The position numbers and the translations under genes were made by a program. A stretch of 64,000 nucleotides of DNA from Gracilinema caldarium DSM 7334 (GTDB lineage: Bacteria; Spirochaetota; Spirochaetia; Treponematales; Breznakiellaceae): the NCBI RefSeq assembly GCF_000219725.1, contig NC_015732.1, forward strand, positions 1,612,001-1,676,000. The letters are read 5' to 3'. Positions 5,094 through 53,615 of the stretch are shown here, piece by piece; positions within the stretch are counted from its first letter, which is position 1; each line of letters begins with the position of its first letter. The notes below the pieces were generated by a model, which was given only the letters and a program-made list of their open reading frames with translations, ran no database searches and had not been told where the DNA came from.

Positions 5094-5122
5094 AGTCTAT
5101 AGAATGCTTTTTTCCTTGTCAA
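5094..5122 (-). promoter_or_regulatory. Sigma-70-type promoter of the rpsF operon
   Basis: On the minus strand a perfect -35 TTGACA (5117-5122) is followed after exactly 17 bases by TAGACT (5094-5099), a 4 of 6 match to the -10 consensus. The expected start site near 5087 leaves a leader of about 50 bases before the rpsF ATG. Confidence 0.75.
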
Positions 5123-5130
5123 GTAAGGTT

Positions 5131-5157
5131 TAAGTAGGTTATTCTGTATGCCGATAC
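5131..5157 (+). promoter_or_regulatory. Sigma-28 (FliA)-type flagellar promoter
   Basis: TAAG (5131-5134), 15 bases, then GCCGATAC (5150-5157). The flagellar sigma-28 consensus is TAAA-N15-GCCGATAA, so 10 of 12 core positions match with ideal spacing. The same TAAG-N15-GCCGATAC arrangement stands in front of flgF (53540-53566). The start site would fall near 5164, just before the RBS of the gene at 5175. This rules out a GTG start at 5163. Confidence 0.7.
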
Positions 5158-5174
5158 CATAAGTGAGGATGAAC

Positions 5175-5615
5175 ATGTCAAAACGTATCCATATCGAAGA
5201 CACCTTGTTTTTTCTTCAAAGCCGAATTAAATTGCTTAGTGAAGGTCTTATGCTTAATTTAGAACCAGACCTTTTTTTGGAATCATACTTTCAAGAGCTT
5301 GATCATCTCCAATCAAGTCTTGCCTATTGCATTTCAGCCATCCAGGAGAACGAAAAATATATCGATTGGGAAGAACAGGTTCATAATTTACTTGATATCG
5401 AGGATGATCTGGAAACTTTGATTAATAATCTCATTCAGGGAAAAGGAACCCTTGGGGCTGCCTTTATACCCATTTCTGAGAAATTGGAACTCTATAAAGT
5501 AAGTTCAAAAGATCGAAAAACACAGTTAGAACGATTGCTTGCCTTGCGCCCTGCAGAACAAGACAGTGGTATGGTAGTTAGTCCTCAGGAATTGCGAGAA
5601 CTACTGCAAGATTAA
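5175..5615 (+). CDS. Helical protein of unknown function, probably motility-linked
   Basis: 146 aa. The ATG at 5175 follows GAGG at good spacing; the GTG at 5163 is rejected because the predicted start site is there. The protein is soluble, acidic and almost entirely helical by composition, with leucine-rich amphipathic stretches (about residues 10-60 and 80-125) and no signal peptide. No family was recognised. The sigma-28-type promoter immediately upstream suggests co-expression with late flagellar genes. Size and helical make-up would suit an export chaperone of the FlgN, FliT or FliS kind, but this is inference only. Confidence 0.7.
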   Translation: MSKRIHIEDTLFFLQSRIKLLSEGLMLNLEPDLFLESYFQELDHLQSSLAYCISAIQENEKYIDWEEQVHNLLDIEDDLETLINNLIQGKGTLGAAFIPISEKLELYKVSSKDRKTQLERLLALRPAEQDSGMVVSPQELRELLQD

Positions 5616-5701: not shown

Positions 5702-6988
5702 ATGGAATATGTAGATTTTCTACTGGTAGGAACCGGTCCTACGGGTCTCGGTGCAGCCTTTGAATTGCTGGCGCATAAACCTTCTTCACGGATCATGCTT
5801 ATTGACAAAGCAAAGGTGTCTTCGGGGGGCCTCCGTAATGACTGCAAAATGAATTTTACTTATCCAATAGGTTTTCCTGTCGATTTCTGGCCCCGGGACT
5901 TGGCAGAACAGTACCTTGAACGGGTTACCGCAGTCTTAAAACCTGACATCATGGAACGTAAAAACGTAGGAGCCTATAGTAAGCGGGCACAGAAAATCGG
6001 TGTTGAACTTCTAGATGTCAAACAGGCGCACCTTGGCACCGATGGGGGGCTTCAGCTCATCAACAAACTGATAAAGGAACTGGAACATAAGGGGGTCAAC
6101 GTTTCTTTGGGAGAAACCATGCTCGATCTGGATCCAGTTAAAAGAATTGCAAAGACGGATCAACGGGAATTGCAGTATAAGGCAATTTTAATTGCTCCAG
6201 GACGGGGTGGCTTTGATTTTCTGCGAAAACTCATGACTAACATTGGAATTCCCTTTTCAGATAATTCTATAGATGTTGGGATACGGGTAGAAACGAGGGA
6301 AATTCATTACCCGATTGTTAAAGATTACTATGATCCAAAATTCCTTTTTCCGGAACGGGTACGGACCTTCTGTACCAACTCAAGAAGTGCCCATGTTGTG
6401 AAGGAACGGTACGAAACCGGTCATGGGGAAACCTATTACAGCGTAAATGGCCATGCTTGGTCTGCAGAACGGCCAGCTAATGGCTTAGTCAATTTTGCGA
6501 TACTCCGGAGTGTAGAATTTACCGAACCCCTTGCATCGGGACAAGATTTTGCAGAAATGCTTGGACTTCAGGCAATGTTGGCTGGAGGTGGGAAACCGCT
6601 CATGCAGCGGGTCGGAGACTTTAGAATGGGGAAACGTTCCACCAGAGATGGTTTTAATCATGATTTATTTGATTTTGAGCCAACCCTTAAAGATTGTACT
6701 CCTGGCGATATCAGCCTTGTTATGCCCGCCAAGTTCTTGCGTTCCATATGGAAAGCCTTAAAGTTATTAGACACCATTGTGCCGGGGGTCTTACATCCCA
6801 GTACGATTATGTATTATCCAGAAATTAAGCTCTATGCAAATAAGCCCCAATTCAAGGATAAGCGCTATTTTATGGCTATAGACGGTGTGTACCTCGCTGG
6901 TGACGGTGCAGGAACGAGTCGAGGAATTACCGCCGCATGGGCGAGTGGACTGCGGGTTGCCGATGGTATGCTGAAAGGAGAACCATAA
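5702..6988 (+). CDS. FAD-dependent dehydrogenase (COG2509 type)
   Basis: 428 aa, soluble. The N-terminus has a dinucleotide-binding fold 'DFLLVGTGPTGLGAAFELL', and the C-terminus the second FAD-contacting motif 'GVYLAGDGAGTSRGITAAWASG', as in the uncharacterised FAD-dependent dehydrogenases of COG2509. Middle segments ('MNFTYPIGFPVDFW', 'VGIRVETREIHYPI') also fit that group. Substrate unknown. rsmD follows within three bases, so the two are co-transcribed. Confidence 0.8.
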   Translation: MEYVDFLLVGTGPTGLGAAFELLAHKPSSRIMLIDKAKVSSGGLRNDCKMNFTYPIGFPVDFWPRDLAEQYLERVTAVLKPDIMERKNVGAYSKRAQKIGVELLDVKQAHLGTDGGLQLINKLIKELEHKGVNVSLGETMLDLDPVKRIAKTDQRELQYKAILIAPGRGGFDFLRKLMTNIGIPFSDNSIDVGIRVETREIHYPIVKDYYDPKFLFPERVRTFCTNSRSAHVVKERYETGHGETYYSVNGHAWSAERPANGLVNFAILRSVEFTEPLASGQDFAEMLGLQAMLAGGGKPLMQRVGDFRMGKRSTRDGFNHDLFDFEPTLKDCTPGDISLVMPAKFLRSIWKALKLLDTIVPGVLHPSTIMYYPEIKLYANKPQFKDKRYFMAIDGVYLAGDGAGTSRGITAAWASGLRVADGMLKGEP

Positions 6989-20955: not shown

Positions 20956-20989
20956 CCCTTATTTACAATATCGGAATAGTAAATAAGGG
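20956..20989. promoter_or_regulatory. 11-bp perfect inverted repeat upstream of the LoaP-like gene
   Basis: CCCTTATTTAC and GTAAATAAGGG are perfectly complementary around a 12-base loop; AGT and ACT outside extend it to 14 pairs with a two-base bulge. It lies in the intergenic region between the exported protein (minus) and the LoaP-like gene (plus). It could be an operator, or an RNA hairpin of the kind that LoaP antiterminators recognise. No T-run follows. Confidence 0.6.
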
Positions 20990-21054
20990 ACTGAAAGATA
21001 TTCTTATTCCATTGTGCTAGAACAAAGGCTATGATATGGTATAGGTACGATCAT

Positions 21055-50586: not shown

Positions 50587-51374
50587 TGAATATAAAAAAA
50601 AGTAATATCGCAATTTTATTTTTTATTACCTTTGCTCCTTTTTTATTTTCACAGAATAGATCTCTTGCTGATCTATATCCTGAAAAAAGTAAAGATTCTT
50701 TAAATATTCTCTTTTCCGAACATGGCTTTATTCAGACACTGGAAAAATCAACACAAAAGCCAATGTTTGAGCCACTATTAGATACTCCATTATATTTTAA
50801 TAATATTATTCAACAAAGGAAACCAAGTTTTGTTATAGAATCGGCTCGTATAATTTCATTAAAAAATACGGTCTCTTTACAAAACATTTTTATTTCGCTA
50901 AGTAGAGTGCGTGATTTAGCTGGTAGAACTTATAAATCGAGTAGTCGTGGAAAAGAGGTTCCTCTCTTTGAAACCGCTACAAGAATAGAAAGTCCTAGAA
51001 AACCAACCCCCTTAGAAGATCCTCGCAATACAATTCATGATGTAATACCCTCAAAACAGGTGTTTTATATTTTGTTAAAAGATATCAATTTTGGAAACTC
51101 TTATTATAAAATTGAAATGCAAACCTATGATAAGGGTCTTATGTTTATTTTAACGAATGCAAAAACACTTTCCTATGGTATCATTCCAGTTATTGGTGAA
51201 GATCGATTTATTTCTGTTTTATACATAGAACCACTAAAGGAAGGCTTATTACTTTATAACCAAGCTGGAGCCCAAGTAAATTCTATCATCTCCTCCCAGG
51301 TGCACATGCCTTCGGCAATTCGTAAACGGCTCGATGTCTTTATTGATTGGTTGGTGGATGGTCTAGGCCAATAA
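50586..51374 (+). CDS. Exported protein, Treponema-type, unknown function
   Basis: 262 aa; ATG overlaps the WbaP stop by one base. Signal peptide with cleavage near residue 22 ('FLFSQ'). The mature part is mixed alpha/beta with a beta-rich centre; several Treponema-like secreted proteins of DUF6675 type look similar, but I cannot confirm the family. Its 3' end overlaps flgJ, convergent, by 35 bases. Position suggests cotranscription with WbaP, or a role in anchoring or export. Confidence 0.6.
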   Translation: MNIKKSNIAILFFITFAPFLFSQNRSLADLYPEKSKDSLNILFSEHGFIQTLEKSTQKPMFEPLLDTPLYFNNIIQQRKPSFVIESARIISLKNTVSLQNIFISLSRVRDLAGRTYKSSSRGKEVPLFETATRIESPRKPTPLEDPRNTIHDVIPSKQVFYILLKDINFGNSYYKIEMQTYDKGLMFILTNAKTLSYGIIPVIGEDRFISVLYIEPLKEGLLLYNQAGAQVNSIISSQVHMPSAIRKRLDVFIDWLVDGLGQ

Positions 51375-51801
51375 CCTTCCCGCGCTGGCCGGTCAGTTCC
51401 AGATAGGCCAGATCGGCTAAACCGAACCCGCTGTTTTTCGTAAGGTTGGTTGCGTATTGATCGTAGAGCATATCCTCATACATTTTGCCCGCAAAACCTT
51501 CATCCATCAATTCTGATTTCATGACGGTTTTGCGCATGCCCTCAAGAAGATTTTTAACTAAAAAGCCTTCCAAAGCCTGGCATTGTTCATAGAGCTTACT
51601 GGTTTTATCAATTTCAGCTTTTCCTGCATGTCTTATTTTTTCTGATGGGTTTTTCTCCGGCTTTGTTGCAGTATCCCCATTGGCATTTTTTGCCTTTTCC
51701 AGCAGGCTCGCGAAGGCATTCGATTCGACAGGAACCGTGCTATTCGATTCGCTTATGAGACTTTGCTGAACTAAAAGACTTCCTATCGCTCCTACATTCA
51801 T
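51340..51801 (-). CDS. flgJ: Flagellar rod-binding protein, FlgJ N-terminal type
   Basis: 153 aa. 'LYEQCQALEGFLVKNLLEGMRKTV' and 'GGFAGKMYEDMLYDQYATNLTKNSGFGLADL'-like segments (here 'EGFAGKMYEDMLYDQYA') are the FlgJ rod-cap domain; the muramidase domain of enterobacterial FlgJ is absent, as in other spirochaetes. It is the last gene of the flgF-flgG-flgJ unit, with a 65-base gap after flgG. Confidence 0.85.
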   Translation of the reverse strand: MNVGAIGSLLVQQSLISESNSTVPVESNAFASLLEKAKNANGDTATKPEKNPSEKIRHAGKAEIDKTSKLYEQCQALEGFLVKNLLEGMRKTVMKSELMDEGFAGKMYEDMLYDQYATNLTKNSGFGLADLAYLELTGQRGKVIGLDHPPTNQ

Positions 51802-51866
51802 CGTATTTCTCCCTGCCTGCTCTATTAAATTATGGTTCTACACTTATTAATTTTACCGTTTTAATC

Positions 51867-52661
51867 CTACCGCTTTAAACCTGTAGCAATCCCAAGCATA
51901 TTGTCGCTGGTCTGGATGGTCTTTGAGTTAAACTCATAAGCCCGCTGAGCGACAATCAGGTTTACCATTTCCCGCACCACTGAAACATTGGACATTTCAA
52001 GGAACTTGTGTACGATTTTTCCCATGCCATCGAATCCTGGACGGCCAGCAATGGGATTTCCAGAAGCGTTGGTCACCTTGAAGAGGTTTTCGCCAACGGC
52101 GGTAAGTCCCACCGGGTTGGGAAAACGGTACAGCTCCATCTGTCCCACCTGGATGGGGTCATCCTGGCCGGGAACCTTCACGGTGATACGACCATCCTGG
52201 GAGACGCTTAGGGTTTCCGGTATAAAGCCTTCGGGCAGCACCACATCGGGCAAAACATGGTATCCATTAGAGGTTACCAGGCGGCCATCACTGTCTATTT
52301 TAAATGCACCGTCCCGGGTATAGGCATAACTGCCGTCATACATTTGAATGCGGAAAAAACCGTCGCCCTGAATTGCAAAATCTGAAACGTTTTCTGTATT
52401 CTGCAGGGCTCCCTGGGTGAACATCCGTTGGGTTGCGGATACCTTGACACCATGGCCCATCTGAACACCGACGGGGGTTACCGTCTCTTCCGTAGCAGGG
52501 GTGCCAGCAGTTTTTATCGTCTGGTATAAGAGATCCTCAAAATCGGCCCGCATTTTCTTAAAACCAGAGGTGTTCACGTTAGCCAGATTGTTGGAAATGG
52601 TATCAATATTTGCCTGCTGACCAATCATACCGGACGCACCGGTCCATAGACTTCTAACCAT
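51867..52661 (-). CDS. flgG: Flagellar distal rod protein FlgG
   Basis: 264 aa. 'SLWTGASGMIGQQANIDTIS' followed by 'NNLANVNTSGFKKMRADFEDLLYQT' is the FlgG N-terminus, and 'EMSNVSVVREMVNLIVAQRAYEFNSKTIQ' the C-terminus; both halves form the coiled D0 rod structure. Length is typical. RBS AGGGGGAA before the ATG. It forms the distal rod of the periplasmic flagellum. Confidence 0.95.
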   Translation of the reverse strand: MVRSLWTGASGMIGQQANIDTISNNLANVNTSGFKKMRADFEDLLYQTIKTAGTPATEETVTPVGVQMGHGVKVSATQRMFTQGALQNTENVSDFAIQGDGFFRIQMYDGSYAYTRDGAFKIDSDGRLVTSNGYHVLPDVVLPEGFIPETLSVSQDGRITVKVPGQDDPIQVGQMELYRFPNPVGLTAVGENLFKVTNASGNPIAGRPGFDGMGKIVHKFLEMSNVSVVREMVNLIVAQRAYEFNSKTIQTSDNMLGIATGLKR

Positions 52662-52670
52662 TTATTCCCC

Positions 52671-53519
52671 CTACACTCGCACCACTTCGTTTATCAATTT
52701 CCCGAGCATGGCGTCTTCTGCCTGGACAACCTTCTGGTTTGCCTCATAGGCCCGGTTTACTTCGATCATCTGTACCATTTCGGTAACTGGATTTACATTG
52801 CTGGCTTCTACAAATCCCTGTTCTACCTTAGGCCGCTGTCCTGCTTCTATAATGCGAGCAGGTCCTGAAAAATCTGTTTCCCTGTACAGGCTGGATCCCT
52901 GTTTTTGCAAATACCGGTCATTTTCAAAATTGACAATTTTAAGCGTGTCCAGCAGCACCGTATTCTGCCAGGTATTGGTTTCTTTTGAAGCAAACACTTC
53001 CGGATCATCAGGATAATCCGCATTTACCCAGATCCGGCCATCCTTATCTACCTTAAAATTGTTAGCCTTAACCCGTATGGGGCCATTTTCGCCCAGAACT
53101 GGATAACCTTCCTTTGTTTCCAGATACCCCTCTTTCCCCAGCTGGAAGGACCCGTTTCTCGTATACCGTTCCCCATAGGGGGTAGCTACGCTGAAAAAGC
53201 CCTTCCCGTCCAAGGCAAGGTCAAAGTCATTCTCGGTTTCCTTCATGGCCCCCTGCTCAAAGCTGGTAAAGAGTTCATTTAATTCCACACCGGTACCTAT
53301 TTTACCAATAATGGGGGCTACGTCCGCAGAACCAAAGGGATGTTGATACACGCCGTCATCGTTAAGACGCCGCATCAGCAGTTCCGGGAATGCCTTATGA
53401 ACCGCAATGTCCTTTTTATAGCCATCCACATCCACATTGGCCAGATTATTCGATACCGCATCGAGCCTGTATTGCTGTGCGGTCATGCCGCTGGCGCCGG
53501 TATACCAACCTCTAATCAC
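52671..53519 (-). CDS. flgF: Flagellar proximal-rod protein FlgF (FlgG-like)
   Basis: 282 aa. The start is GTG at 53519 behind GGAGG, and agrees with the predicted sigma-28 start site; a longer reading from TTG 53549 is rejected. 'VIRGWYTGASGMTAQQYR', 'SNNLANVDVDGYKKDI' and C-terminal 'EASNVNPVTEMVQMIEVNRAYEANQK' place it among rod proteins. Two FlgG-like genes in tandem is the Treponema arrangement (called flgG-1/flgG-2 in T. pallidum). Confidence 0.9.
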   Translation of the reverse strand: MIRGWYTGASGMTAQQYRLDAVSNNLANVDVDGYKKDIAVHKAFPELLMRRLNDDGVYQHPFGSADVAPIIGKIGTGVELNELFTSFEQGAMKETENDFDLALDGKGFFSVATPYGERYTRNGSFQLGKEGYLETKEGYPVLGENGPIRVKANNFKVDKDGRIWVNADYPDDPEVFASKETNTWQNTVLLDTLKIVNFENDRYLQKQGSSLYRETDFSGPARIIEAGQRPKVEQGFVEASNVNPVTEMVQMIEVNRAYEANQKVVQAEDAMLGKLINEVVRV

Positions 53520-53539: not shown

Positions 53540-53566
53540 GTATCGGCAAAGGTGCAGGGATCCTTA
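53540..53566 (-). promoter_or_regulatory. Sigma-28 (FliA)-type promoter of flgF-flgG-flgJ
   Basis: Minus strand: TAAG (53563-53566), 15 bases, GCCGATAC (53540-53547). Against the consensus TAAA-N15-GCCGATAA, 10 of 12 bases match with ideal spacing. The start site near 53533 lies about 14 bases before the GTG, with the GGAGG RBS within the short leader. The element matches the one at 5131-5157 in both core and spacing. Confidence 0.75.
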
Positions 53567-53615
53567 AGATTGGAAAGCCTATTTATGCTTGCAAAAAAAA
53601 GAGCAACCCTATAGT

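Follow-up and report, generated by a model that had tools for sequence, protein, structure and literature searches.

Results

The 146-codon gene and its upstream region

The window analysed here is a 64,000-base stretch of the Gracilinema caldarium DSM 7334 genome (positions 1612001-1676000 of one 3,239,340-base contig). It carries a gene for a 146-aa protein with a FliA-type (sigma-28) promoter element upstream and a FliM/FliY-like peptide at the end of the product. The features are given below in window positions.

5119-5123, + strand: additional -35-like TCAAG within GTCAAGTAAGG, at a wrong distance here (sequence reading)
5130-5134, + strand: -35 box TTAAG of the FliA-type promoter (matrix match), a box as in the TCAAG/TTAAA of the genome's own flagellins
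5150-5157, + strand: -10 box GCCGATAC; NCCGATA is kept in most orthologues of the organism's own family
5167-5171, + strand: ribosome-binding site GAGGA, position approximate (sequence reading)
5175-5615, + strand: gene for the 146-aa protein, a member of an undescribed Spirochaetia family
5193-5546, + strand: four-helix bundle predicted by AlphaFold2, codons 7-124, with helices at 7-25, 31-58, 65-87 and 91-124
5547-5576, + strand: predicted flexible linker, codons 125-134, with low pLDDT and variable length and sequence
5577-5606, + strand: VSPQELRELL, codons 135-144, a peptide like the EIDALL peptide of FliM/FliY and the most conserved part of the family
53540-53567, - strand: second FliA-type site with identical boxes and spacer, before flgF/flgG, serving as an internal positive control

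An earlier note on this DNA had described TAAG-N15-GCCGATAC directly ahead of the ribosome-binding site, with a match to the FliA consensus in 10 of 12 positions. Both statements hold. TAAG lies at 5131-5134 and is followed by a spacer of 15 bases, GAGGA and the ATG at 5175, and the match of 10 in 12 is obtained against TAAA-N15-GCCGATAA. Comparison with the orthologues favoured the ATG at 5175 over a GTG at 5163, placing the start codon 17 bases from the -10 box.

A scoring matrix was trained on 14 flagellin promoters from this genome and its relatives, with the 146-aa gene left out. When both strands of the 64-kb window were scanned, the site at 5130-5157 (+) tied for the top score with the site at 53567-53540 (-), where TTAAG-N15-GCCGATAC recurs. 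The earlier statement that the further copies of GCCGATAC checked in the window never have TAAG or TAAA 15 bases upstream was therefore wrong. The operon behind the second site (51340-53519) encodes two rod proteins of the FlgE/F/G type (flgF/flgG) and a rod-binding protein, so that this copy strengthens the proposed link to motility. In enterics, FliA does not usually control rod genes. A further FliA-like site, TTCAG-N15-TCCGATAT at 20968-20995 (-), lies about 24 bases upstream of a gene for a 157-aa exported protein, which is followed by a gene for a 446-aa exported protein with a SPOR-domain-like C-terminal part; both are possible further FliA targets.

FliA and its regulon in the genome

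The genome encodes FliA, which matched TIGR02479 with 293.7 bits, above the cut-off of 189.6. The flagellin promoters of related genomes read T[CTA]AAG-N14/15-[TG]CCGATA, the same element as that before the 146-aa gene. In T. denticola, the sigma-28 promoter of flaB2 has been mapped, with TTAA and CCGATAA as its boxes (PMC9481697), and the flagellin promoter of the genome with locus L132, which we infer to be T. denticola-like, agrees with it in sequence and distance. The promoter before the 146-aa gene resembles the mapped one in its TTAA(G) and CCGATAA boxes, in a spacer within the range of 14-15 and in belonging to a FliA-bearing treponeme. The two differ in that the flaB2 start is mapped, whereas the promoter of the 146-aa gene is predicted from sequence and leaves a short leader.

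A genome-wide search was made with two patterns only, and the resulting regulon list is incomplete. The first pattern gave 11 matches and the second 14, compared with 8 for the reversed control in each case. The bare DNA pattern is thus near chance frequency in the genome and proves nothing alone, which would favour a chance match at the 146-aa gene. Support for the promoter comes instead from placement before gene starts and from conservation. The 25 matches represent 22 distinct places, six of which are placed as promoters: those of flgN (PF05130), fliD (PF02465/PF07195), flaB, flgF, the 146-aa gene and a gene for a 231-aa exported protein. Nearly all remaining matches lie within longer reading frames, and the fliD site overlaps a short antisense frame only. 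The promoter-placed copies ahead of flagellar genes, together with a conservation in orthologues far above that in shuffled sequences and other genes, make a chance match scarcely credible. The site ahead of the 231-aa protein is TCAAG-N15-ACCGATA (L150, G000:C1:183783-183809, -); a family match was sought for this protein and none was found, and it is a candidate new FliA target.

Conservation and replacement of the promoter

In 23 of 29 orthologues, CCGATA was found no more than 60 bases from the start; dinucleotide shuffles gave an expectation of 0.9 and a maximum of 5. A matrix score of at least 12 was reached by 18 of 28 orthologues in the organism's own family (f1) and by 13 of 18 in the T. 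denticola/T. pallidum family (f3). The corresponding fractions were 0/8 in f4, which has weaker GCCGA sites, and 3/14 in f5. As a control, the same genomes were scored ahead of other genes, where 5 of 89 upstream regions reached this value. Three of these five precede rsmD. In another (L032, G014), the FliA-like site precedes the gene for a LysM-like exported protein (1934-2881, -) instead of the orthologue, which comes next in the same direction. In L012 and L021, GTCAAGTAAG, the counterpart of the GTCAAGTAAGG box, acts as the -35 box with a spacer of 14, according to sequence reading. The element is also visible by eye in several families in the rest of the class, for example as TCAAG-N15-TCCGATAG in L186 and L191.

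In f5, a sigma70-like TTTACN-N16-18-TACANT was found in 9 of the 14 genomes (L104, L107, L108, L110, L111 and L113-L116), and the other five retain a CCGAT-type box. No other family of the order showed this sigma70-like promoter. The gene thus appears to have swapped sigma factors within the order, with sigma70-type control replacing the sigma28 type. In the syphilis-type genome G045, no FliA element could be recognised upstream of the orthologue. The idea that orthologues in other treponemes would share the promoter thus stood for most of f1 and f3, was borne out in part in f4 (with weak sites), in f5 and in the rest of the class, and failed for G045 and the nine f5 genomes.

The link to motility through a FliA-type promoter, proposed in the earlier note, is strongly supported by the motif shared with the flagellins, the copies before flgN, fliD, flaB and flgF, the presence of FliA, and the conservation in the majority of orthologues in two families. 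The 146-aa gene very probably belongs to the FliA (sigma-28) regulon.

Gene neighbourhood

In most families of the class, the 146-aa gene adjoins and diverges from rpsF-ssb. Downstream, rsmD and two TPR genes are often found in f1; coaX follows in convergent orientation in f4 and in most of the f5 genomes read; and in other families the neighbour is, by eye, pyruvate kinase or a GAF-domain regulator. In the organism's own genome, a gene for a Rossmann-type flavoprotein (window 5702-6988, +) lies between the 146-aa gene and rsmD. This arrangement is seen in Gracilinema and a few relatives, while most f1 genomes have rsmD directly next.

The order with rsmD, conserved in many genomes, is what might be expected if the protein served RNA or DNA metabolism together with its neighbours (rsmD, the TPR proteins and rlmN) and the promoter were incidental. 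Two-hybrid data from T. pallidum point the same way, having placed TP0064, TP0066, TP0067 and TP0068 in DNA metabolism and cell division (PMC2386257, Table 2). However, several other families change the downstream neighbour or have it convergent and yet keep the tail, the rpsF side and often the promoter, and we consider a metabolic role very improbable. Because the downstream neighbour varies or is convergent, the promoter appears to serve the 146-aa gene and not a fixed operon.

Distribution of the family

On sequence comparison, the protein family spans Spirochaetia. Orthologues were found in 43 of 59 relatives and in 97 of the 214 genomes of the order. FliA is present in 208 of these 214 genomes and is therefore almost universal, so that the order provides no test of co-occurrence. 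Of 197 genomes of the phylum, 27 were found to carry the gene. All 27 have FliA, and one of them (G304) shows a broken, doubtful match. None of the 31 FliA-less spirochaete genomes has the gene. The FliA-negative genomes among those listed belong to two families, whose sizes would fit Borrelia and Sphaerochaeta; they represent few independent events, and the phylum test is one-sided. Strict co-occurrence with FliA was rejected. Many FliA-bearing genomes have no copy of the gene. No homologue was detectable in g44 of f3, a large genus of FliA-bearing treponemes, suggesting that the 146-aa protein is not a core part.

TP0064 of T. pallidum is very probably the orthologue, judging from position and gene order: a match lies at 71.3 kb of the 1.14-Mb treponeme genome G045, with shared gene order. 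It differs from the gene studied here in the missing upstream element and in its published assignment to DNA metabolism and cell division. In a literature search, with subscription journals mostly outside it, the two-hybrid study was the one paper found to name TP0064, and no paper tied the protein to the EIDALL motif, to FliA or to motility.

Predicted fold of the protein

Searches of Pfam, NCBIfam and PHROGs with the 146-aa protein gave no significant match, nor did a sequence search of the PDB. AlphaFold2 models built with 29 and 30 orthologues had mean pLDDT values of 86 and 85. Past the four-helix bundle and the linker, they contain a predicted C-terminal helix (137-145). The structural neighbours listed were only generic helical bundles. 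The best Foldseek E value was 0.3, and the best VIA-align Z score was 13.5 (STAT and syntaxin bundles), which falls among the values quoted for common helical bundles.

The earlier note had suggested an export chaperone or assembly factor and had named FlgN, FliT and FliS for structural comparison. Such a bundle would hold a late substrate, and its C-terminal helix would regulate the hand-over to the export gate. The size of the protein, the modelled bundle with a separate C-terminal helix, and a FliA-type control shared with the genome's own flgN and fliD all agree with this, as does a FliT-FliJ fusion in the Foldseek list, though at an E value of 1.6. Neither Foldseek nor VIA-align, however, convincingly listed a flagellar chaperone. 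Pfam models for FlgN, FliS, FliT and CheZ were absent among the first 25 of the 29 families listed for 30 members at E values up to 1. The organism's FlgN is encoded elsewhere, by an unrelated gene that has a FliA-type site of its own, and no similarity was found between this FlgN and the 146-aa protein. No export-substrate gene adjoins the 146-aa gene in any locus read, where the neighbours are rpsF/ssb, rsmD, coaX and others. The most conserved part of the protein is, moreover, a FliM-like peptide, a tail that differs from the chaperones. The suggestion thus found no support, and we regard a chaperone function as unlikely.

CheZ also has a helical body followed by a linker and a potentially CheY-binding helix at the C-terminus, and the predicted 146-aa protein shares this layout. 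It is shorter than CheZ, however, and a CheZ-like phosphatase was rejected. The protein's own DxxxQ (DWEEQ) is not conserved: several f1 members have H, E or L in place of the Q, and other families do not keep the motif either.

A FliM/FliY-like C-terminal tail

The strongest clue to function, missed in the earlier note, is the FliM-like tail. Nearly all of 70 orthologues follow the consensus [VL]SxxE[LI]xxLL, and all 70 carry the core [VL][SG]xxE[LIMY]xxL[LFV]. E139 and L143 are invariant, and V135, S136 and L144 are kept in 94-97%. Together with L140, these are the best-conserved columns of the protein besides M1, D9 and L72. A related ending, E-x-x-x-L-[LMF], is retained by members from the other families of the class and, weakly, by those from f16, outside it. 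The genome's own FliM starts with MTEVLSQEEIDQLL (LSQEEIDQLL) and its FliY with MSDGALSQDEIDALL (LSQDEIDALL). The tail of the 146-aa protein is VVSPQELRELL, and that of the syphilis-type orthologue (G045) is VVSQDEIDELL, an almost perfect FliM-type peptide.

The tail resembles the EIDALL peptide of FliM/FliY in the pattern [VL]S-x-x-E-[IL]-x-x-L-L, in a Ser just ahead of a short predicted helix, and in a flexible linker to the body of the protein. It differs in that the motif is C-terminal, S or N mostly takes the place of the D in EIDALL, and the body is a helical bundle without CheC/SpoA domains. With this peptide at the C-terminus of a helical bundle and no Pfam domain, the 146-aa protein is not FliM or FliY. 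The EIDALL peptide of FliM/FliY binds CheY-P (PMC9126983; PMC6946799), and FlhG meets FliM via the FliM N-terminus (PMC12826062).

The likeness could instead be convergence in a FliA-regulated protein whose tail has a partner unrelated to CheY or FlhG, as a short amphipathic motif arises readily, the D is not kept and the tail is C-terminal. When [VIL]S..E[ILM]..L[LF] was searched among 491 reading frames, however, 60 occurrences were at the C-termini of orthologues and one at the N-terminus of FliM, with no others found, and the promoter puts the gene in the cellular system of FliM. We therefore judge convergence to be distinctly unlikely.

Discussion

We propose that FliA RNA polymerase would start transcription at TTAAG-N15-GCCGATAC. 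A FliA-driven start implies that the protein would be made together with the filament parts, late in the assembly of the flagellum. The product would be a small cytoplasmic four-helix bundle carrying a FliM/FliY-type peptide on a flexible C-terminal linker, and this tail may bind a reader of the motor-switch peptide, with CheY-P as the first candidate and FlhG as the second. As a docking or competitor protein, it could then adjust how the motor switches or how the C-ring assembles as soon as flagella are under construction. The reading that we hold to be somewhat better than even is thus a protein made late in flagellar assembly, with a FliM-like tail for docking CheY-P or FlhG; the binding by the tail, the partner and the effect on motility are all inferred. 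Counting against this reading are the C-terminal position of the tail, the D mostly not being kept, the missing FliA element in G045, the weak f4 sites, the sigma70-like promoters of f5, the absence of a homologue in g44 and the two-hybrid reading. A more specific version, plausible at a little under even, is that the proteins of this family, very probably TP0064 too, would be soluble mimics of FliM, made under FliA control, whose EIDALL-type tail competes with the motor switch for CheY-P or recruits FlhG, and would thereby couple the assembly state to chemotactic switching or flagellar number.

For treponemes, the analysis provides a FliA motif that can be put to use, together with a small regulon, and within the order it reveals an apparent sigma28-to-sigma70 switch in the control of a single gene. 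It also assigns to the flagellar system a conserved hypothetical protein, of which TP0064 in the syphilis spirochaete is very probably an example and which seems to be a component of spirochaete swimming control not described before. To our knowledge, how motor switching is coordinated at both ends of the spirochaete cell is an open question. If the proposal is true, a soluble protein that carries the docking peptide of the motor switch would give a direct handle on this coordination between the motors at the two ends.
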